In this document: in pieces, positions 9,266-18,706 of the stretch
Numbering within the stretch: position 1 is the stretch's first letter
Layout of the letters: every line of letters starts with the position of its first letter
Assembly: GCA_902615715.1 (NCBI GenBank)
Contig: CACMQA010000001.1
Span: forward strand, 124,001-188,000
Reading direction: 5' to 3'
DNA from: an uncultured Pelagibacteraceae bacterium
Lineage (GTDB): Bacteria; Pseudomonadota; Alphaproteobacteria; Pelagibacterales; Pelagibacteraceae
Length of the DNA: 64,000 nucleotides
Position numbers and translations under genes: made by a program
The notes under the pieces: generated by a model
Databases searched by the model: none
Seen by the model: only the letters and a program-made list of their open reading frames with translations
Told to the model about the DNA's origin: nothing

Positions 9266-10165
9266 AGACTTTAATTTTTTAATATGTTTTGGAGTAATTT
9301 CACAACATCCTCCAATAATGTTAGCTCCCTTACTTTTTAATTTTTTACAAATTTCAAGGAATTTTTGGGGAGTGAGGTCTTTTCTTTTTCCAAGCTGAAC
9401 CTTAGGATTATTCGAGTCAGGTTTCCAACCTGGTGGAATATGTTCAAAGGCATTGATTTTAAATCCAAATGGAATTTTTAGTTTTTTTGCGTCTTTCATC
9501 ACCTCATTTAAATCCTCAAATGAAACACAAGAGGCTATAATCCCAATAGGTTTATGTCTTTGGACTTTTTTTGCTACAGTTATAAATTTTTCTCCAGAGG
9601 GCAACAACCCTTTACTCCTAATATGGATACCGACTAAAATTTTTTTTTTGTATTTTTTAATAGCATTTAAACCTAACGAACACTCTTTCCAGCTACTCAT
9701 TACATCTAAATAAAAAAAATCCACATATGGATTGAGATATTTTGCTTGGGATCTAAAACTTTCTTTTATAAACTTTAGATCTTTTCCAAGATCAGCAAAA
9801 TAAGTAAAATTTTGAGGTGGTAAACTTCCAGCGATTAAAACTTTTTTTTTAGACATAGCTACAGCTCTTTTAGCTAGTTTTCCTGCAAGAACGTTCAAAT
9901 TTTTATATTCTTTTACTAAATTATTTTCGATTAGCCTTCTTTTTCTGCTACCGAAGCTATTAGTTACTATGATTTCTGCTCCAGCTTTTATAAAATCTAA
10001 ATGAGTTCTGATAACTGTTTTATGATATTTTCGTATAAATAAAGCCGAGGCTCCCCATAAAGTTCCATGTGGTTTAACTCCTCGATTAAGAAGTTCTTGG
10101 CCCATGCCACCGTCTAAAATTCTTGTTTTTTGAAAAAAATAATTATCCAGAAACTTCAATTCCAA
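9257..10165 (-). CDS. Homocysteine S-methyltransferase-family protein
   Basis: The protein (about 302 residues) belongs to the PF02574 family. It has the opening motif RILDGGMGQELLNRG and the zinc-thiolate residues Cys in IIASCVSFED and the Cys-Cys pair in IIGGCCEI near the C-terminus. Family members move a methyl group from a donor (S-methylmethionine, betaine, SAM) to homocysteine or a related thiol/selenol. The donor cannot be told from sequence, but the convergent betaine-transport genes make a betaine-type donor worth considering. No ATG is available before the conserved core. A TTG at 10165, or one two codons later, is the likely start, overlapping the small upstream gene by about 23 bp. 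Confidence 0.75.
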   Translation of the reverse strand: MELKFLDNYFFQKTRILDGGMGQELLNRGVKPHGTLWGASALFIRKYHKTVIRTHLDFIKAGAEIIVTNSFGSRKRRLIENNLVKEYKNLNVLAGKLAKRAVAMSKKKVLIAGSLPPQNFTYFADLGKDLKFIKESFRSQAKYLNPYVDFFYLDVMSSWKECSLGLNAIKKYKKKILVGIHIRSKGLLPSGEKFITVAKKVQRHKPIGIIASCVSFEDLNEVMKDAKKLKIPFGFKINAFEHIPPGWKPDSNNPKVQLGKRKDLTPQKFLEICKKLKSKGANIIGGCCEITPKHIKKLKSLV

Positions 10166-10328
10166 AGAGAGTAGATAAAAAAATTACGATTGCGAATATT
10201 GCAAACCACATAAACCATTGAGACGCTACTTTGACCAAAGAACCTTTATCTATACCTTTCCAAGGCATAAACGTGTATGTGGCCAGAGTAACTAAAATCA
10301 AAAATAAAAGTAAATTAGTTAAAGTCAT
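10143..10328 (-). CDS. Small two-helix membrane protein, unknown function
   Basis: This 61-residue ORF starts with an ATG directly adjacent to the prpC stop and has two clear hydrophobic segments, about residues 4-22 and 38-57, separated by WKGIDKGSLVKVASQ. It resembles small conserved alphaproteobacterial membrane proteins of the 'twin transmembrane' kind, but I do not recognise a named family. Its tight packing between prpC and the homocysteine methyltransferase gene, in the same direction, supports real expression as part of a prpB-prpC-small ORF-methyltransferase operon. No function is assigned. Confidence 0.6.
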   Translation of the reverse strand: MTLTNLLLFLILVTLATYTFMPWKGIDKGSLVKVASQWFMWFAIFAIVIFLSTLFGIEVSG

Positions 10329-11453
10329 TTATCTTTGGTTCAACAACATTACTTCTCTTACCTCAGCACCTCTGTATTTAGATAATGGTCTAATTAATTT
10401 ATTAGAAGCATGTTGTTCCATGATGTGTGCTGACCAACCAGTAATTCGCGACATAACGAAAATTGGTGTATAAAAATCAATATCTATCCCCATCATGTAA
10501 TAAGTTGGACCACAAGGGAAATCTACATTAGGGTATATTTTCTTTTTATCTATCATAACCTTTTCTAAGATTTCATAAATTTTTGTATACTTTTCTTTTT
10601 TTAAAAGCTTAGCAACTTTGAACATATAATGTTTCATCGTAGGCACTCTAGAGTCTCCAGTCCTATAAACTCTGTGACCAAATCCCATAACAACTTTCTT
10701 TTTATCTAATGCATTTTCAATCCAAGCTTTAGCTTTTTCTGGTTTTCCTATTTCTTTCATCATATGCATTACAGCTTCATTTGCTCCACCATGTAATGGA
10801 CCTTTTAGGGAAGCTATGGCTCCAGTAATTGCGCCGTGCAAATCTGATAAACTTGAAGTAATTGTTCTAGCTGTAAAAGTTGAAACATTAAAACTATGCT
10901 CAGCATATAAAATTAATGAGATATCAAATGCTCTGACTATTTCTTTATCTGGCACTTTATTAAACATCATTTTAAAGAAATTTTCTGAGAAAGATAAATT
11001 TTTACTTGGGGAGATTATACTTTTACCTTTTCTTGCTCTAAAATACGCAGCAACTGCAGTAGGAGTTTTAGCAAAAATTCTCATTGCTTTTCTCATGTTT
11101 GCTTTAGGAGAATTATCTTTGGTATCTTTATCTTCTAATGCCATTAAACTTACACAGGTTCTAATCACATCCATAGGGTGTGCATTTTTTGGCATCTTTT
11201 TAATATCGTTTAATATTTGTTTTGAAAGTTTTCTCTCAGATCTTTCTTGTTTTATAAATTTTTTTAGCTGGTTTTTATTTGGAAGTTCACCATTAAGAAC
11301 AAGATATGCCACTTCTTCAAAATCACACTTATCACATAGTTCTTGAACTGTGTAACCTCTGTATGTTAGTGCACTTAACTCAGGAACTACGTGCGAAATC
11401 GTCGTTTCATCAACAACTATACCAAGTAATCCTTTTTTAATTTCTTCACTCAT
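10329..11453 (-). CDS. prpC: 2-methylcitrate synthase/citrate synthase family
   Basis: The 374-residue protein is a short bacterial citrate-synthase-fold enzyme. Its active-site landmarks are LHGGANEAVM (first His), GFGHRVYRTGDSR (second His) and GIDIDFYTPIF (catalytic Asp). The length and N-terminus (KKGLLGIVVDETTISHVVPE...LTYRGY) fit methylcitrate synthases rather than the longer hexameric GltA. The immediate upstream neighbour is prpB, with stop and start sharing one base (TAATG). This makes condensation of propionyl-CoA with oxaloacetate the best call. Some enzymes of this group also use acetyl-CoA. No prpD is in the window. Confidence 0.85.
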   Translation of the reverse strand: MSEEIKKGLLGIVVDETTISHVVPELSALTYRGYTVQELCDKCDFEEVAYLVLNGELPNKNQLKKFIKQERSERKLSKQILNDIKKMPKNAHPMDVIRTCVSLMALEDKDTKDNSPKANMRKAMRIFAKTPTAVAAYFRARKGKSIISPSKNLSFSENFFKMMFNKVPDKEIVRAFDISLILYAEHSFNVSTFTARTITSSLSDLHGAITGAIASLKGPLHGGANEAVMHMMKEIGKPEKAKAWIENALDKKKVVMGFGHRVYRTGDSRVPTMKHYMFKVAKLLKKEKYTKIYEILEKVMIDKKKIYPNVDFPCGPTYYMMGIDIDFYTPIFVMSRITGWSAHIMEQHASNKLIRPLSKYRGAEVREVMLLNQR

Positions 11454-12349
11454 TATTCATGTCCCTCTGTAGAAAAATCAGTAATTTTTTTATCTGGGGT
11501 ATTGTATTTCTCATATTCTACTAACTCGTACAACCTTTTTCTAGTCTGCATTTTGTCTATAATATTGTTTTGATGACCATCATTAAATATAGATTTTAAA
11601 CCTATTTCTACATTTTGCATTGCAAGACGTTGTGTGCTCACAGGATAAATTACAAGGTTATAACCTAAATTTTCTAATTGTTTTTTATCTAACAACTTAG
11701 ATTTTCCAAACTCAGTCATGTTAGCTAGCAAGTACCCTTTAGCTGCTTTTCTAACTTTTTCAAATTCACTTTCATCTTTCATGGCTTCAGGAAAAATCAT
11801 ATCAGCCCCAGCATCTTCATAAGCTTTAATTCTCTCTAAAGTTTTATCTAATCCTTCAACTGAGTTTGCATCCGTCCTTGCAATGATTAAAAAATTTGCA
11901 TCTTTTCTAGCTTTTATAGCTTCTTGAATCTTTTTTACCATTTCATCTTTGGAAACTAGTTCCTTGTTGTCTAGGTGACCGCATCTCTTTTCTGCAATCT
12001 GATCCTCTAAATGACATCCGGCTAGACCTTTATTTTCAAACACTTCTATAGTTTTTTTGCAATCCCCAAAACCTGTATCAATATCAACAATCGTTGGAAG
12101 ATCAGTAACTCTTGCTATTTGCCCGCTTCTATAACTAACTTGATCTAGTGTTGTTAATCCAATGTCAGGCAAACCTAGATCGTTAGACATAACTCCGCCA
12201 GAAACATAAACACCATCGAAACCAATTTCAGCAATTAGTTTTGCACAAAGCGGATTGTAAGCCCCAGGAAATCTTAACAGTTTTTTTGTTTTAAGTGCTT
12301 CAATTAAATCTGAACGTTTCTCAGATACTATTTTTTTAGTAAAATGCAT
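11453..12349 (-). CDS. prpB: 2-methylisocitrate lyase
   Basis: The 298-residue protein belongs to the PEP mutase/isocitrate lyase superfamily. It contains GFDGVYVSGGVMSN, the metal-binding DIDTGFGD, and the catalytic-loop signature EKRCGHLDNKE (KRCGH with the catalytic Cys). These fit PrpB, which cleaves 2-methylisocitrate to pyruvate and succinate. It is the first gene of the prp operon here, read away from nearby plus-strand DNA. It overlaps prpC by a single base, so translation is probably coupled. Related oxaloacetate or phosphonopyruvate lyases are possible alternatives, but the PrpC neighbour argues against them. Confidence 0.87.
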   Translation of the reverse strand: MHFTKKIVSEKRSDLIEALKTKKLLRFPGAYNPLCAKLIAEIGFDGVYVSGGVMSNDLGLPDIGLTTLDQVSYRSGQIARVTDLPTIVDIDTGFGDCKKTIEVFENKGLAGCHLEDQIAEKRCGHLDNKELVSKDEMVKKIQEAIKARKDANFLIIARTDANSVEGLDKTLERIKAYEDAGADMIFPEAMKDESEFEKVRKAAKGYLLANMTEFGKSKLLDKKQLENLGYNLVIYPVSTQRLAMQNVEIGLKSIFNDGHQNNIIDKMQTRKRLYELVEYEKYNTPDKKITDFSTEGHE

Positions 12350-12390
12350 TCGAAGAGATTTATATTAGAGCAAGATAAAAAAATCAAAGA

Positions 12391-12990
12391 TTATTTAAGT
12401 AATATAAATAAACCAGTTAATACCAACAGAACTGCAAGTATATATTCAATAATTTTTTTTGTTTTTATATCTGTAATAAATTTTCTTAAACCACTACCAA
12501 AAAGTGCCCATAAACTTATTGTTGGAAAACATATTATCGCAGCTGTTATTGTTACAAATGCAACTCCAATAAAAATATTTTCCTCTGTAGGAAAAAAACC
12601 CGAAGCAACTGTCACAGCAATAGACCAAGCTTTGGGATTTATAAATTGGAATAAAGAAGCTTCATAAAATCTTAAAGGCCTACCTGATTCTCTTTGAGTC
12701 ATGCTAAATGAACCAATCATTTGCCATCCTAAGTAAATCAAATAAATGAAACATAAAATTTTCATATAGAATTGAACTTGAGGATAAAGTAAAAACAAAT
12801 TAGCTAAACCAAAACAAGTTAAACCAATTTGAAAAATATGACCTAATGGAATTCCAATTAAATGAGGCAATGTTCTTACAAATCCAAACTTCATTCCTGA
12901 AGCAGTAAGCATCGCGTTATTTGGGCCAGGTGTAAAAAACATTGTAAAATAAAAAGCTGATAATGCTGAGAATAAAGCAAAAGTAATCAT
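12391..12990 (-). CDS. LysE/RhtB-family amino-acid exporter
   Basis: The 199-residue, six-helix membrane protein has the family's N-terminal signature FTPGPNNAMLTASGMKFG (GPN motif after helix 1). It ends in a hydrophobic helix, VLLVLTGLFILLK, and has the usual LysE/RhtB length. It would export amino acids or similar small metabolites; the substrate is not predictable. It overlaps the upstream HAD phosphatase gene by 4 bp (ATGA), indicating a two-gene transcriptional unit. A 41-bp gap separates its end from the prpB start. Confidence 0.85.
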   Translation of the reverse strand: MITFALFSALSAFYFTMFFTPGPNNAMLTASGMKFGFVRTLPHLIGIPLGHIFQIGLTCFGLANLFLLYPQVQFYMKILCFIYLIYLGWQMIGSFSMTQRESGRPLRFYEASLFQFINPKAWSIAVTVASGFFPTEENIFIGVAFVTITAAIICFPTISLWALFGSGLRKFITDIKTKKIIEYILAVLLVLTGLFILLK

Positions 12991-13649
12991 AAATATTTTT
13001 CTATAATTTTTTCAAATCCTATAAAGTCATTAATCAATTCATCATGCTTTATTTCATTTTCAGATTTTTCAGTATATCCATCTTTAACTAATACGAATGG
13101 AAGGTTTGCGTTATAAGCTGAATTAGCGTCAACTTCACTATCTCCAACCATAATTGTTTTCTTTAAATCTCCACCAACGATTTCGACTACATCAGTTAAA
13201 TGTCGAGGATCAGGTTTATTAAATGAAAAGGTGTCACAACCTGCAACGTATTCAAAGTACTTGTAAATATCTAATTTTTTTAAAAGATCAACTGCTAATT
13301 TTTCTTGTTTGTTTGTGCACACACTCATTGATATATTTTTATTTTTTGCCCAATTAAAAAATTCAATAGATCCTTTTAACGGTTGACTGTGTTTATCAAT
13401 ATTTTTTGCGTAATAATCCAGAAACTCTTTAATCATTTTTTTTTTAATTTTTTCATCTTTTATCTCCTCCTTAAAAGATCTTTGCATCATAACCCAAGCA
13501 CCCTTGCCTGCCAGGGATTTAATATCTGATAGTCTCTTTTCAGCGTAACCAAATTTTTTCATTACATGATTGTGAGCCGCCATTAAGTCGGGGGCAGTAT
13601 TTACTATTGTTCCGTCTAAATCAAAAAGAATTGTGTAAATTTGAGTCAT
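12987..13649 (-). CDS. gph: HAD-superfamily phosphatase, phosphoglycolate phosphatase-like
   Basis: The 220-residue protein has HAD motif I at the N-terminus (LFDLDGTIVNTAPD, nucleophile Asp about 10). Motif II is in SVCTNK (Ser/Thr), the conserved Lys is in SFNKPDPRHL, and motif IV is MVGDSEVDANSA. The helical cap between motifs I and II is of the Gph/PGMB type. Phosphoglycolate phosphatase removes the 2-phosphoglycolate made during DNA repair or photorespiration-like chemistry, but related enzymes act on other sugar phosphates. It is divergent from the GlmU-like gene and overlaps the LysE-type gene by 4 bp. Confidence 0.8.
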   Translation of the reverse strand: MTQIYTILFDLDGTIVNTAPDLMAAHNHVMKKFGYAEKRLSDIKSLAGKGAWVMMQRSFKEEIKDEKIKKKMIKEFLDYYAKNIDKHSQPLKGSIEFFNWAKNKNISMSVCTNKQEKLAVDLLKKLDIYKYFEYVAGCDTFSFNKPDPRHLTDVVEIVGGDLKKTIMVGDSEVDANSAYNANLPFVLVKDGYTEKSENEIKHDELINDFIGFEKIIEKYL

Positions 13650-13718
13650 TTTAAAAGTATTAAAAAGAAATATTTTGTGACTTATTTCAGTTACATTATT
13701 AATGTAAAGAAATTTTTA

Positions 13719-14363
13719 ATGAAAAGAAATAATAAACTTAATAAAGCTAATGCTTATCGCCTTTCTCAAGAAGTTTTAAGAAACAAAGCTTTGTTGAAAG
13801 GTGTAAATTTGATAGCTCCAGAGACAATCTTTTTGTCTAAAGACACATCATTCGGTAAAAATGTTACAGTGGAACCCTACGTTGTTTTTGGACCTAAAGT
13901 AAAAATTGGCGACAACTCTTTTATCAAATCTTTTAGTCATTTAGAGGGAACAAAAATAGAAAAAAATGTTGTTGTAGGGCCATATGCTAGGTTAAGAGAA
14001 GGAACAGTTTTAAAAGAAAAAACTAAAATTGGAAATTTCGTAGAAACAAAAAAATCAATCATAAATAAAAATTCAAAAGTCAATCATCTATCTTATATTG
14101 GAGATACATTAATAGGAAAAAAATCAAATATAGGTGCGGGAACGATCACTTGTAACTATGATGGTATTAAAAAATCTAAAACAAATATTTCTGATAATGT
14201 TTTCATTGGATCGAATTCTTCTTTAGTTGCACCAGTTAAAATAGATAAAAATAGTGTTGTAGGTGCTGGGTCTGTAATTACTAAAAATGTTAAAAAGAAA
14301 ACATTAGCTTTAACAAGAGCTTCTCAACTTGAAATTAAAAATTACAGACGAAAGAAAAAATAA
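13719..14363 (+). CDS. Stand-alone GlmU C-terminal acetyltransferase domain
   Basis: The protein (about 214 residues from the ATG at 13719) matches only the second half of bacterial GlmU. It starts at the linker helix (NAYRLSQEVLRNKALLKGV), continues with the left-handed beta-helix of hexapeptide repeats, and has the acetyltransferase signatures GPYARLREGT, NHLSYIGD, GAGTITCNYDG and FIGSNSSLVAPV. The N-terminal uridylyltransferase domain (about 230 residues) is absent, and nothing like it lies upstream, where a HAD gene diverges. A longer start at 13641 would overlap that gene. It should acetylate glucosamine-1-phosphate to GlcNAc-1-phosphate. glmS follows after 2 nt, tying it to amino-sugar synthesis. 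Confidence 0.85.
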   Translation: MKRNNKLNKANAYRLSQEVLRNKALLKGVNLIAPETIFLSKDTSFGKNVTVEPYVVFGPKVKIGDNSFIKSFSHLEGTKIEKNVVVGPYARLREGTVLKEKTKIGNFVETKKSIINKNSKVNHLSYIGDTLIGKKSNIGAGTITCNYDGIKKSKTNISDNVFIGSNSSLVAPVKIDKNSVVGAGSVITKNVKKKTLALTRASQLEIKNYRRKKK

Positions 14364-14365
14364 TA

Positions 14366-16183
14366 ATGTGTGGAATAATTGGTATAGCTAGTAATAAACC
14401 TGTTTCAATAAATATAATTAATTCACTCAAAAAACTTGAGTACAGAGGTTATGATTCTGCTGGACTTGCAACTTTGACAGACAATACTATTAATGAAAAA
14501 AAATGTTCAGGTAGGGTAGATGAGTTAGAGAAAATTTTATTTAAAACACCTTCAAATGGCAATATTGGTATTGGACACGTAAGATGGGCTACTCATGGAA
14601 TTCCGAATGTAGTAAATGCTCATCCGCACTCTTCAGAACAAGTATCTGTGGTTCATAATGGTATAATAGAAAATTCTGATGAAATAAAAAAAGAACTAGA
14701 AGATAAAGGAATTAAATTTAAATCTCAGACAGACACAGAGGTAGTAACATTATTAATTACTGAGGCTTTAAAAGAAAATAAGCCGTTAGAATCAGTATTT
14801 AAAACGTTGAAAAAACTTAAAGGCAGTTTTGCGCTAGGAATAATTTTCAAAAATTTTTCGAATATTATTATAGGGGCAAGAAGAGGAAGTCCTTTAGCAG
14901 TTGGATATTCAAAAGAGGAAAATTATATAGGCTCAGACTCTTACGCTTTGAAATCCATGACAAACAAAATTTCTTATCTTGAAGATGGAGAATTGTGTGT
15001 AATAACAAAAGATGAAGTTAATTTTTATGATGTAAGTCTTAAGAAAATAAATAAAAAAATTCTCACAATGTCAGAAGACAAAGATCCAGCTGATAAAGGA
15101 GAATACAAACATTTTATGTTAAAGGAAATCATTGAACAACCGGAAACTGTAAAAAATTGTATAGACGAATACGTTGATAGTCTTAAAAAAAATATCAATA
15201 TACTTAATTTTCCAATTGAGCCTCAAAAAATAAATAAGATCATTTTGATAGGTTGTGGCACAGCATATAATTCATGCTTAACAGCAAAATATTGGTTTGA
15301 AGAATTAACTTCAATTGATATCGAAATAGATATTGCATCTGAATTTAGATATAGAAAACTAAAATTTAATTCAAACAATCTTTATTTTTTTGTTTCTCAA
15401 TCAGGAGAAACAGCTGACACTGCAGCTGCACTTGATATATGCAAAAAAAATAATGTAAAGACATGTTCAATTGTAAATGTAATTGAAAGCACAATCGCGA
15501 GGAATTCTGACTGGGTTTTACCTATTCATGCTGGAATAGAAATTGGTGTTGCATCGACTAAAGCATTTTTAGGTCAGCTCACTGTTCTTTATATATTATG
15601 TTTAAAATTAGGTTTTTTAAGAAAAGATATAAACGAAAATATATATACAAAAAATATTAGTAATTTAAACAAACTTCCTGAAGCAATTAAGAAATGCATC
15701 AAAAATCAAAACGAAGTTCAACTTATGGCAAAAGAATTTATTTCAGCAAAGGGATCAATGTTTTTGGGAAGAGGTTCTTCTTTTCCAATTGCTTTAGAAG
15801 GTGCATTAAAATTAAAAGAATTATCTTATTTACATGCAGAGGGTTACCCAGCAGGTGAAATGAAACATGGGCCTTTAGCTTTAATTGAAGAGGGGTTACC
15901 TGTAATAGTTATTGCACCTAAGGATAAGTATTTTGAAAAAACAATGTCTAATATGCAAGAGGTTATTGCAAGAGGTGGAAAAATACTTCTTATTACAGAT
16001 AATAAAAAGGAATCTTTAAATGAAAATATAAGATTTGGTTTAAGAGTTCCGCACATTGATAACTTGCTATCACCAATATTATTAACGTTACCTTTACAAA
16101 TGCTTGCCTATCATGTTGCCTTATTAAAAAATTGTGATGTAGATAAACCTAGAAACTTAGCAAAATCAGTTACAGTTGAGTAA
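14366..16183 (+). CDS. glmS: Glutamine--fructose-6-phosphate aminotransferase (isomerizing)
   Basis: GlmS makes glucosamine-6-phosphate from fructose-6-phosphate and glutamine, the first step to UDP-GlcNAc. The 605-residue protein starts MCGIIGIAS, with the N-terminal nucleophile Cys2 of class II amidotransferases. It shows YRGYDSAGLA and GHVRWATHG in the glutaminase domain, and two SIS domains with GCGTAYNS, SQSGETADT and GRGSSFPIALEGALKLKE. It ends DKPRNLAKSVTVE, the standard GlmS C-terminus. The start is 2 nt after the acetyltransferase gene. No glmS ribozyme or leader is apparent upstream. Confidence 0.95.
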   Translation: MCGIIGIASNKPVSINIINSLKKLEYRGYDSAGLATLTDNTINEKKCSGRVDELEKILFKTPSNGNIGIGHVRWATHGIPNVVNAHPHSSEQVSVVHNGIIENSDEIKKELEDKGIKFKSQTDTEVVTLLITEALKENKPLESVFKTLKKLKGSFALGIIFKNFSNIIIGARRGSPLAVGYSKEENYIGSDSYALKSMTNKISYLEDGELCVITKDEVNFYDVSLKKINKKILTMSEDKDPADKGEYKHFMLKEIIEQPETVKNCIDEYVDSLKKNINILNFPIEPQKINKIILIGCGTAYNSCLTAKYWFEELTSIDIEIDIASEFRYRKLKFNSNNLYFFVSQSGETADTAAALDICKKNNVKTCSIVNVIESTIARNSDWVLPIHAGIEIGVASTKAFLGQLTVLYILCLKLGFLRKDINENIYTKNISNLNKLPEAIKKCIKNQNEVQLMAKEFISAKGSMFLGRGSSFPIALEGALKLKELSYLHAEGYPAGEMKHGPLALIEEGLPVIVIAPKDKYFEKTMSNMQEVIARGGKILLITDNKKESLNENIRFGLRVPHIDNLLSPILLTLPLQMLAYHVALLKNCDVDKPRNLAKSVTVE

Positions 16184-16184
16184 G

Positions 16185-16598
16185 ATGAAATCAAAATATA
16201 AAGCTATGGTTTTATCATGCATTGATCCTAGATTTCAGCCGATTGTTTTTAACTACCTTAAGAAAAAAAAATTAAGCGGAAGATACAGTTCTTTTACTAT
16301 AGCAGGGGCAGCTATAGGAGTTACTGCAAACAGGTTCAAAAAATGGCACAAAGTTTTTTGGGATAATATTGATACCTCAATTAAACTACATAAAATAAAG
16401 AGACTTATAGTAATAAATCATAGAGACTGTGGGGCGGCAAAGATTATCAATGGCAAGAAAGAATTTTCAAAAATTAAAGAAACAAAAATACACAAAAATT
16501 CTTTTCAAAAAATAAAAAAAATATTTAAAAAAAGATATCCAAAATTGAAAATTACATTAAAACTCATCTCACTAAACAAAAAAATCGAAAATTTTTAA
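16185..16598 (+). CDS. Minimal beta-type carbonic anhydrase-like protein
   Basis: From the ATG at 16185 the protein has about 137 residues. It keeps the zinc/catalytic pattern of beta-carbonic anhydrases: CIDPR (Cys12, Asp14, Arg16) and HRDCG (His79, Cys82). It also has the GAAIGV segment after the first motif. It is shorter than typical beta-CAs (about 200 residues), lacking the N-terminal helices and ending in a Lys-rich tail. It may be a catalytically active short form or an uncharacterised zinc protein. The start overlaps no coding sequence if ATG is used; a TTG at 16176 would overlap the glmS end. It converges with the gluconolactonase gene. Confidence 0.7.
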   Translation: MKSKYKAMVLSCIDPRFQPIVFNYLKKKKLSGRYSSFTIAGAAIGVTANRFKKWHKVFWDNIDTSIKLHKIKRLIVINHRDCGAAKIINGKKEFSKIKETKIHKNSFQKIKKIFKKRYPKLKITLKLISLNKKIENF

Positions 16599-17260
16599 AT
16601 AATTTTATAAATTATAGTATTCTTTTTATTTAAATTATTTACAGGAATTTTTTTTCCTTCTTTTTTCTTTTTTAAATAAATCATTGATATAGACTTATTA
16701 TTTAACCATAGTAAAATTTTCTTTGAACTATTGATTATATTTAAACCAATAGTAATTCTACTAAAATCTTTTCTCATTACTGGTTTAGTAATAAACTTTT
16801 TATATAAATTTTTAGAATTTGGAAAAAGAGATGCGATGTGACCATCTTTTCCCATTCCAAGCAAACAATAATCAAAATAAATTTTTTTGTTTCTAAAATA
16901 TTTTTTAATTATTTTTGAGTATTCATTAGAACATTCTGAAATTTTTTTTGTTGTATTAATAGGAAATATATTTTTTTTATTTATTCTGATCTTTTTAATA
17001 AATTCATTTTTTGCCAAATTAAAATTAGAATTTTTAGATAGCTGATGAACATATCTTTCGTCTCCCCAAAACAAATCAACATAATTCCAATCAATATTGA
17101 CTTTGGCAAGGTTTCTGTAAAGTTTTCTTGGGCTTTCACCACCAGTTAAAACTATGCTAAATCTTTTATTTTGTTTTCTAATCCTTAGATAATCTTTTTT
17201 AAAATTACTGATAAATTCTTTTATTAATGATTTTTCGCTTTTTTTATTAATTATTCTCAT
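16595..17260 (-). CDS. pgl: 6-phosphogluconolactonase
   Basis: The 221-residue protein has the DevB/Pgl signatures LTGGESPRKLYRNL near residue 40, FWGDERYV near 68, and LLGMGKDGHIASLFP near 133. This is the glucosamine-6-P isomerase/6-phosphogluconolactonase fold in its Pgl form. It would hydrolyse 6-phosphogluconolactone in the oxidative pentose-phosphate branch or a related sugar-acid route. The sequence is very Lys/Ile-rich. It overlaps the carbonic anhydrase-like gene by 4 bp tail to tail and diverges from the DAHP synthase gene. No zwf or gnd lies nearby. Confidence 0.82.
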   Translation of the reverse strand: MRIINKKSEKSLIKEFISNFKKDYLRIRKQNKRFSIVLTGGESPRKLYRNLAKVNIDWNYVDLFWGDERYVHQLSKNSNFNLAKNEFIKKIRINKKNIFPINTTKKISECSNEYSKIIKKYFRNKKIYFDYCLLGMGKDGHIASLFPNSKNLYKKFITKPVMRKDFSRITIGLNIINSSKKILLWLNNKSISMIYLKKKKEGKKIPVNNLNKKNTIIYKII

Positions 17261-17329
17261 AATTTATTCTTAATATATTAATTTAGCTTTGAAATTTTAC
17301 TCAATCATTATATATACTACCAGTTGAAT

Positions 17330-18706
17330 ATGAAAAAATGGAATTTAAATAGTTGGACAAAATTTCCTGCTAAACATCTGCCAGTTTATCAGGATAAAGA
17401 CGAACTTGATCTGGTTTTAAGTAAAATTAAAAAATATCCTCCATTAGTGTTTGCTGGTGAGTCTAGATCTCTAAAAAAATCTTTAGCTGAGGTTTCTGAA
17501 GGTAAGGCATTTTTATTACAAGGTGGAGATTGTGCAGAAAGTTTTGCTGAGTTTCATCCTGATAATATTAGAGATACGTTTAAAGTTCTTTTACAAATGT
17601 CTTTAGTTTTGACAGCATCAGCCTCAGTGCCTGTTGTAAAGGTTGGTAGGATAGCTGGACAATTTTCGAAACCAAGAAGTGCTCCAACTGAAAAAAAAGA
17701 TGGTAAAGAATTGCCAAGTTATCTTGGTGACAACATTAATGGTATGGAATTTACTGAAAAAGCAAGAATTCCAGATGCAAAAAGATTGTTCAGAGCATAT
17801 TCACAATCAGCTTCTACACTAAATTTATTAAGAGCTTTTTCCCAAGGAGGATTTGCTGATCTTAGACAAGTGCATTTATGGAATTTAGGATTTATTAAAG
17901 ATAAAACCAAAGGCAAATATAAAGAGATTGAAGATAAGATAAGTGATGCACTTGCTTTTATGGAAGCTTGTGGAATTAATTCGGACAACAACAGACGATT
18001 AAGAACTGTAAACTTTTATACTTCACACGAAGCTTTACATTTACCATTCGAGGAATCCATGACTCGAGTAGACTCCACAACTGGAGAATATCATGATACT
18101 TCAGCACATTTTGTATGGATAGGTGATAGAACAAGACAACCTGAAGGTGCCCACGTAGAATTTTGTAGAGGCATAAAAAATCCCATAGGGCTTAAATGTG
18201 GTCCAACGTTAAAACCAGAAGAATTAATTAATTTATGTAACATTCTCAATCCAGAAAACGAAGCTGGTAGATTAACATTAATTTCAAGATTTGGGGCTGA
18301 TAGTGTTCAAAAATATTTACCAAAATTAATGCAAGCAATAAAAAAAGAGGGTCTTAAAGTTATTTGGTCATGTGATCCTATGCACGGAAATACAATTAAA
18401 GCAGCTACAGGATTTAAAACTAGGCCTTTTGAAAATGTTCTTAAAGAAGTAAAAAATTTCTTTGCAGTTAGTCATGCAGAAAAAAGTTATGCTGGCGGAC
18501 TTCATATCGAGATGACTGGTCAAGATGTAACTGAATGTACAGGTGGAGCTCAAAAAATATCTGAGAAAGATCTCTCAAGTAGATACAGAACTCACTGTGA
18601 TCCAAGATTAAATGCAGATCAAGCTTTAGAGTTAGCTTTCTTGATTTCTGAAGAAATTAAGAAAAATTCAAAAATCTCAAATAAAATTATTCAAGCTGCG
18701 TCTTAA
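17330..18706 (+). CDS. 3-deoxy-7-phosphoheptulonate (DAHP) synthase, class II
   Basis: This enzyme condenses phosphoenolpyruvate and erythrose-4-phosphate in the first step of the shikimate pathway. The protein (about 458 residues) is clearly class II (plant/Mycobacterium type): [12 protein letters not shown] (metal-ligand Cys), [19 protein letters not shown] (metal His) and [13 protein letters not shown] used the ATG at 17330; a TTG two codons upstream would be the only alternative. It diverges from pgl across about 70 bp of A+T-rich promoter DNA. A long perfect hairpin covers its stop codon. Confidence 0.92.

Follow-up and report, generated by a model that had tools for sequence, protein, structure and literature searches.

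UDP-GlcNAc is required for peptidoglycan and lipid A, and GlmU, the E. coli type of which is described by the model TIGR01173, is usually treated as a single essential bifunctional target. In eukaryotes, acetylation and uridylylation reside on separate proteins, GNA1 and UAP1. A bacterial GlmU with only one of the two halves is described in the accessible part of PMC5615194: the GlmU of Rickettsia lacks the acetyltransferase half, and Rickettsia is believed to import GlcNAc-1-P.

We analyzed a 64,000-nucleotide stretch of a SAR11 genome (the window, G000:C1:124001-188000), which is part of a 1.06-Mb assembly in 14 contigs with a completeness of 95.25%. A gene at 13719..14363 on the plus strand (ATG at 13719, stop codon at 14361-14363), here called glmU-C, encodes 214 amino acids that comprise the GlmU linker and a complete hexapeptide-repeat acetyltransferase domain, as judged from TIGR01173, Pfam Hexapep and the alignment to PDB entries. 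Residues 4-214 matched positions 224-451 of the 452 positions of TIGR01173 with 250.5 bits (E = 3e-74), which is under the curated cut-off of 366.85 bits for bifunctional GlmU. The acetyltransferase half of the model is thus present and the uridylyltransferase half absent (the match at the locus starts at model position 223). Solved GlmU structures aligned over their C-terminal half only; in 2v0h, positions 227-452 aligned with residues 4-212. Compared to bifunctional GlmU, the SAR11 gene shares the whole acetyltransferase domain, the linker and the place before glmS, but it has no uridylyltransferase domain. The alignment to 2v0h and to full-length SAR11 GlmUs revealed that GlmU-C retains the stretches NHLSYIGD and GAGTITCNYDG, which agree with the pattern NH(L)xY(x)GD and GAGTxTCNYDG of GlmU C-domain acetyltransferases and which we take to be catalytic in this activity. 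This conservation suggests that GlmU-C is an active acetyltransferase, and we predict it to be a monofunctional glucosamine-1-phosphate N-acetyltransferase.

The original prediction, made from the window alone, held that this GlmU is reduced to its acetyltransferase half, that it begins in the linker and that the DNA upstream belongs to a divergent gene; the alignments and the neighboring reading frames agree with all three statements. The start of the protein falls within the linker, and an alternative, longer frame from a TTG at 13641 runs into the divergent gene and brings no extra domain. This neighbor, at 12987..13649 on the minus strand (220 aa, identified as an open reading frame and by synteny), probably encodes a phosphatase of the MupP kind, a name given by analogy. 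The two divergent starts are separated by 69 bp (13650..13718), so an N-domain cannot fit there, and tblastn with three SAR11 GlmU N-domains found no relic of one in this gap and no N-domain in window positions 10001-18000 (E up to 0.01). The nearest of the three N-domains matched the positive-control stretch for this search at E = 1e-102. The mupP-kind gene holds the same place in relatives with a full-length GlmU. In Caulobacter, MupP (CCNA_02390) and GlmU (CCNA_02389) carry neighboring numbers in the accessible part of PMC13046382. On the other side, a 605-aa reading frame at 14366..16183 on the plus strand starts two bases past the glmU-C stop. Relatives of this frame adjoin glmU in all 18 glmU-locus stretches searched with tblastn. 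We presumed it to be glmS from its sequence, with the MCGI start as the basis.

Elsewhere in this 95.25% complete genome a second GlmU was not found; the other 14 matches to TIGR01173 scored at most 64.1 bits. GlmM was present above its cut-off (522 bits). With the N-half absent, no full-length GlmU found and glmM in place, UDP-GlcNAc should come from a separate uridylyltransferase, as the original prediction had reasoned. It had proposed a search for a stand-alone enzyme: a GlmU-N was not recognized in the genome, whereas GalU and MurU emerged as candidates. Besides glmU-C, the nucleotidyltransferases of this genome are RmlA, GalU, an HddC-GmhB fusion, RfbF, ManC, a CBS-type enzyme, two KdsB-like proteins and MurU; the names come mostly from sequence and context, and those of GalU and MurU, like that of AmgK, also from family matches. 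The galU homologue (P0003, 271 aa) is located outside the window at G000:C1:201254-202069 and adjoins ugd. The murU homologue (P0002, 232 aa) is located at G000:C2:229664-230359, in a tsaE-amgK-murU cluster.

As in the eukaryotic GNA1/UAP1 split, the two activities in SAR11 would be carried by separate proteins; however, eukaryotes acetylate GlcN-6-P with an unrelated acetyltransferase, whereas SAR11 keeps the GlmU fold and probably GlcN-1-P as the substrate. Rickettsia, as depicted in the part of PMC5615194 available, is likewise a genome-reduced alphaproteobacterial lineage that lost one half of GlmU. It is the mirror image of SAR11: there the acetyltransferase half was lost, whereas in SAR11 the uridylyltransferase half is gone and its step has to be carried out by another enzyme of the cell. 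The original prediction had called the division of labor archaeal-like, a comparison that found no support; the archaeal model TIGR03992 (Arch_glmU, NCBIfam) is itself described as a bifunctional nucleotidylyltransferase/acetyltransferase, and the eukaryotic split and the mirror loss in Rickettsia are the closer analogies. In searches of the listed literature, we found no report of a GlmU in SAR11 that consists of the C-half only (C-only).

To describe the distribution of the two forms, we used a sample of 397 genomes of the order, in which f1 denotes the family of this genome, f2 the sister family, and a GlmU over the TIGR01173 cut-off counts as full. The cut-off was passed by 49 genomes: 40 of 53 in f2, 4/4 and 5/5 in genera g2 and g5 of f1, and 0/335 in the other seven f1 genera. 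The 13 genomes of f2 below the cut-off are all drafts that are 58-86% complete, and in two of these (G053 and G089) a partial match covers some of the N-half. Within the seven C-only genera, 282 of the 335 genomes match GlmU at E <= 1e-60, the range that a C-half gives; neither half is matched strongly in the remaining 53, each of which is a draft in several contigs, and this may reflect either gaps or real losses. Some of these drafts are 94-96% complete (G074, G080, G092 and G109). The genera g8 and g9, each represented by a single draft genome, were assigned as C-only by score, as were G005, G011, G013, G015 and G020; the matched range was seen for some of the other C-only genomes.

Twenty glmU-locus stretches were fetched, two of which were at a wrong place; in the 18 used, from 18 genomes, both the full and the halved glmU are flanked by mupP and glmS, one at each end. 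An intact glmU at this same place in g2, g5 and f2 indicates that the loss of the uridylyltransferase half is derived. The original prediction had named an intact two-domain gene in relatives as grounds for giving it up; such genes do exist, but they date the loss instead. We also inspected named SAR11 loci, the best 80 of 490 matches, which are titled Pelagibacteraceae except for one from Candidatus Pelagibacter ubique HIMB058 (L119). Among these best 80 of 490, MupP was found in 80 and glmS in 79, and the N-domain in none, flanking DNA included; the distance from mupP to glmU was less than 100 bp in 75 loci and around 2.1 kb in the other five (L128, L142, L149, L151 and L153; in L153, the one inspected, the gap contains a 676-aa open reading frame). 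In G282 and G301, long HMM ranges with stops hinted at intergenic relics of the N-domain; the gap in these two is no longer than in other genomes.

With an assembly in 14 contigs at the completeness given above, the N-half could be missing through a gap, a misassembly or a wrong start. We consider this extremely improbable. The sequence from mupP to glmS is unbroken, the same structure occurs in all of the best 80 of 490 named matches, and the single-contig genomes G003, G009 and G026 have the same halved glmU, which rules out the artefact. The C-only GlmU is not limited to one genome, and the loss of the uridylyltransferase half is real, old, derived and fixed across a large part of the SAR11 family. 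Decay of the N-domain preceding the loss was not seen in g2 and g5, where the motifs are intact in seven aligned sequences. The frame of the glmU N-domain is broken in the single-contig genome G157 (L227 and L217); we considered ongoing decay and rejected it, because amgK is in two frames as well, which makes sequence errors the likelier cause.

We calculated phylogenies to determine whether the half was lost once or twice. The C-only genera g1, g3, g6 and g7 are referred to as the main clade; the trees did not include g8 and g9. In the tree from GlmS, MupP, PGAM, GlmU-C and MurU, rooted with f2, the C-only genus g4 groups beside the full-length genus g2 (support 96/97), and it does so again when GlmS is omitted (97/98), which would imply that the half was lost twice. 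For one C-only clade as the alternative, the AU tests gave p = 0.047 and 0.099, which is weak. The main clade as one group is compatible with the AU test (p = 0.52) and monophyletic in the GalU tree (100/100) and the Ugd tree (85/85), whereas the tree from GlmS only splits it up. In the GalU and Ugd trees, which lack the f2 root, the full-length sequences group together and g4 falls outside. From these phylogenies, we favor two losses; one loss is possible.

For the pathway in C-only genomes we propose that GlmS and GlmM would supply glucosamine-1-phosphate, which GlmU-C would acetylate to GlcNAc-1-P, and that the UTP-dependent step would now be performed by a separate sugar nucleotidyltransferase that the genome already encoded. 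In the main clade, including the genome studied here, the most likely candidate is the GalU homologue, which would have changed to use GlcNAc-1-P besides, or instead of, glucose-1-P. The single-contig genomes G011 and G020, C-only by score, encode three PF00483 enzymes each (E <= 0.001), in frames of 402 or 407, 274, and 238 or 230 aa, which we read as ManC, GalU and MurU. We took the sites that are invariant in the full-length genomes G001, G007 and G157 and in the g4 genome G009, and counted those with a change that is fixed in seven main-clade genomes (3 to 8 main-clade rows per gene; AmgK without a g4 row). GalU has such changes at 12/117 sites, compared to 27/1192 for a pool of eight other genes (Fisher p = 7e-5). 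In a matched set of three against three genomes the values are 19/159 for GalU and 68/1536 elsewhere (p = 2.6e-4), with ManC (17/209) and MupP (8/118) next after GalU and also higher than most genes, which weighs against GalU. GalU was picked after the first site comparison had been seen; a prediction is tested solely by the second set of genomes. For this second set, the roughly conserved distance between glmU and galU, 54-74 kb in G000 and six single-contig genomes, was used to fetch more galU genes. Twenty stretches were requested and 15 obtained, eight from f1 and seven from f2; galU together with ugd was found in seven of the eight from f1 (not in G112) and in none of those from f2. The set adds six main-clade genomes and one full-length genome. 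Nine of the 12 GalU sites hold, versus 1/213 in the adjacent ugd (p = 3e-4), and these nine are changed in 13/13 main-clade genomes and 0/5 others. In GalU, a branch of 0.52 separates the main clade from the remaining sequences, compared to 0.11 in ugd.

Three of the changes, L109T, Y168W and Q227H, lie in motifs that presumably line the nucleotide and sugar pocket. All 13 main-clade GalUs have GTG, WG and EIH/EFH/EVH at these places, and the five others have the ancestral residues. The candidate aligns with bacterial GalU (TIGR01099) over its whole length; however, L, Y and Q (GLG, YG, EIQ/ELQ) are kept in the five PDB GalU alignments listed, of which a pair represents one protein, and we therefore read T, W and H as derived. 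L109T turns GLG into GTG where GlmU has LGTGHAV, with equal spacing to a Gln. We assume that GlgC-type enzymes likewise have T at this position, so the change would not be specific for GlcNAc. P0003 scores under the TIGR01099 cut-off (263.2 versus 326.8 bits), but so do full-length SAR11 lineages (239-272 bits, overlapping with 243-263 for main-clade GalU), so this cut-off does not separate the groups. Further observations speak against GalU as the replacement. G009, the sole g4 genome examined for GalU, is C-only yet has L, Y and Q as in the ancestral form, which means that g4 relies on a different solution or that the replacement does not require the three changes. In all seven stretches found by synteny, galU adjoins ugd, its usual pathway partner. 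The comparison group is also small (g2 with two near-identical genomes, g5 and one g4 genome), and the shift in GalU could concern another property. On balance, we put the chance that a modified GalU replaces the uridylyltransferase half in the main C-only clade, a substrate use deduced from sequence, just short of even.

The main rival to GalU is MurU, which would have taken over the uridylylation of GlcNAc-1-P besides its role in MurNAc-1-P recycling. The SAR11 protein matches the MurU family (NF045761; PDB 4y7t/u/v) along its length and has amgK next door in this genome, but P0002 scores 127.7 bits, below the cut-off of 250. The solved structures nearest to its structural model are MurU (Z 27.8 to 27.2; best 4y7v with Z 27.8, rmsd 1.9 and 215 aligned residues), followed by GMPP and GalU with Z about 25; the model predicts the fold and says nothing on the substrate. 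In favor of a second role, all 30 selected genomes, with either form of GlmU, have a MurU match at E <= 1e-20. Moreover, LDTGGG is replaced in g4 by LGTGGG, like LGTGHAV of GlmU, in 3/3 sequences versus 0/34 other MurUs. The two sugars are close, MurNAc being a lactyl ether of GlcNAc, and in the C-only genera g4 and g7, three genomes have murU apart from amgK. In P. putida, AmgK and MurU take MurNAc modified at the 2-N-acetyl position (accessible part of PMC5411481). Against it, MurU has no excess of clade-fixed changes (1/69 sites), and the pairwise identities, compared by eye, show no extra constraint in C-only lineages. The recycling route, which is of the Pseudomonas type, is also retained, with AnmK in all 40 genomes searched, full and halved alike, and AmgK in 361/397 (in 142/151 when only genomes with a completeness of at least 90% and no more than 5% contamination are counted). 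AmgK is next to MurU in 34/37 loci (one cut by a contig end, one in two frames), and the amgK neighbor, AnmK and MupP of the route are all present; recycling alone can therefore explain why MurU is kept. We regard a takeover by MurU as a rather unlikely, if serious, alternative. Still another enzyme, be it of the ManC type, the eukaryotic UDPGP type (PF01704) or an unrecognized family, might supply UDP-GlcNAc, or GalU and MurU might do so by lineage. The candidate changes do differ between g4 and the main clade, and ManC of g4 is strongly diverged, with 45 of 155 otherwise invariant sites changed. However, ManC has only 3/124 clade-fixed changes in the full set, despite the value in the three-against-three set, and G011 and G020 have only three PF00483 enzymes each at E <= 0.001; this reading seems improbable to us. 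A further reading, in which GalU became the UDP-GlcNAc pyrophosphorylase (possibly dual for Glc and GlcNAc) in the main clade and made half of GlmU dispensable, and an independent loss in g4 was solved via MurU, we likewise consider doubtful.

Several further observations concern these enzymes. The g4 ManC (G009:C1:526945-527775) lies within a 488-aa frame and is perhaps from a different ManC lineage. The murU genes apart from amgK (L218 and L215 from g4, L200 from g7) have an apparent argF or lpd as neighbor, and the amgK of these genomes is at another place. We had considered that g4 lost AmgK, which would have freed MurU, and rejected this because AmgK is encoded elsewhere in G009 (7.7e-101), G263 (4.9e-100) and G282 (4.0e-115); that MurU was kept despite a broken recycling route was dismissed on the presence of AnmK in 40/40 genomes searched. 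A MurU-like protein is found at E <= 0.001 in 394/397 genomes; some hits are weak and were taken for other nucleotidyltransferases. Some drafts (G129, G131, G137, G138, G139, G158, G159, G160 and others) have no amgK and, for MurU, nothing beyond weak hits of this kind, which looks like the absence of the entire amgK-murU stretch, through either a gap or a true loss.

A widespread clade without the uridylyltransferase half implies that this step can pass to another enzyme, with GalU and MurU as the candidates. The residues T109, W168 and H227 in GalU constitute a sequence-based prediction open to a simple assay. If GalU took over in the main clade and MurU in g4, one half of an enzyme essential for the cell wall would have been replaced repeatedly by non-homologous means, in a bacterial group that ranks among the most abundant. 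Automatic annotation may label glmU-C as bifunctional GlmU, which would mask the gap.

In a sample of the class, for which 337 genomes of 90% completeness or more were requested, 39 fell under the GlmU cut-off, and 31 of these were re-examined. GlmUs with only the N-half were found in three families: f39 (G433, G539, G619 and G686), f77 (G471, G564 and G642) and f49 (G443 and G625). Their loci (L256, L258 and L261-L267) match the model at about 2-243, and the genomes have no match to the C-half at E <= 1e-12. These proteins resemble the Rickettsia case, as far as the accessible part of PMC5615194 describes it. In G542 and G622 of family f123 (L259 and L260), the C-half follows about 170 residues that resemble a decayed N-domain without LAAGxGTRM, which may represent a further loss of uridylyltransferase activity within the class.
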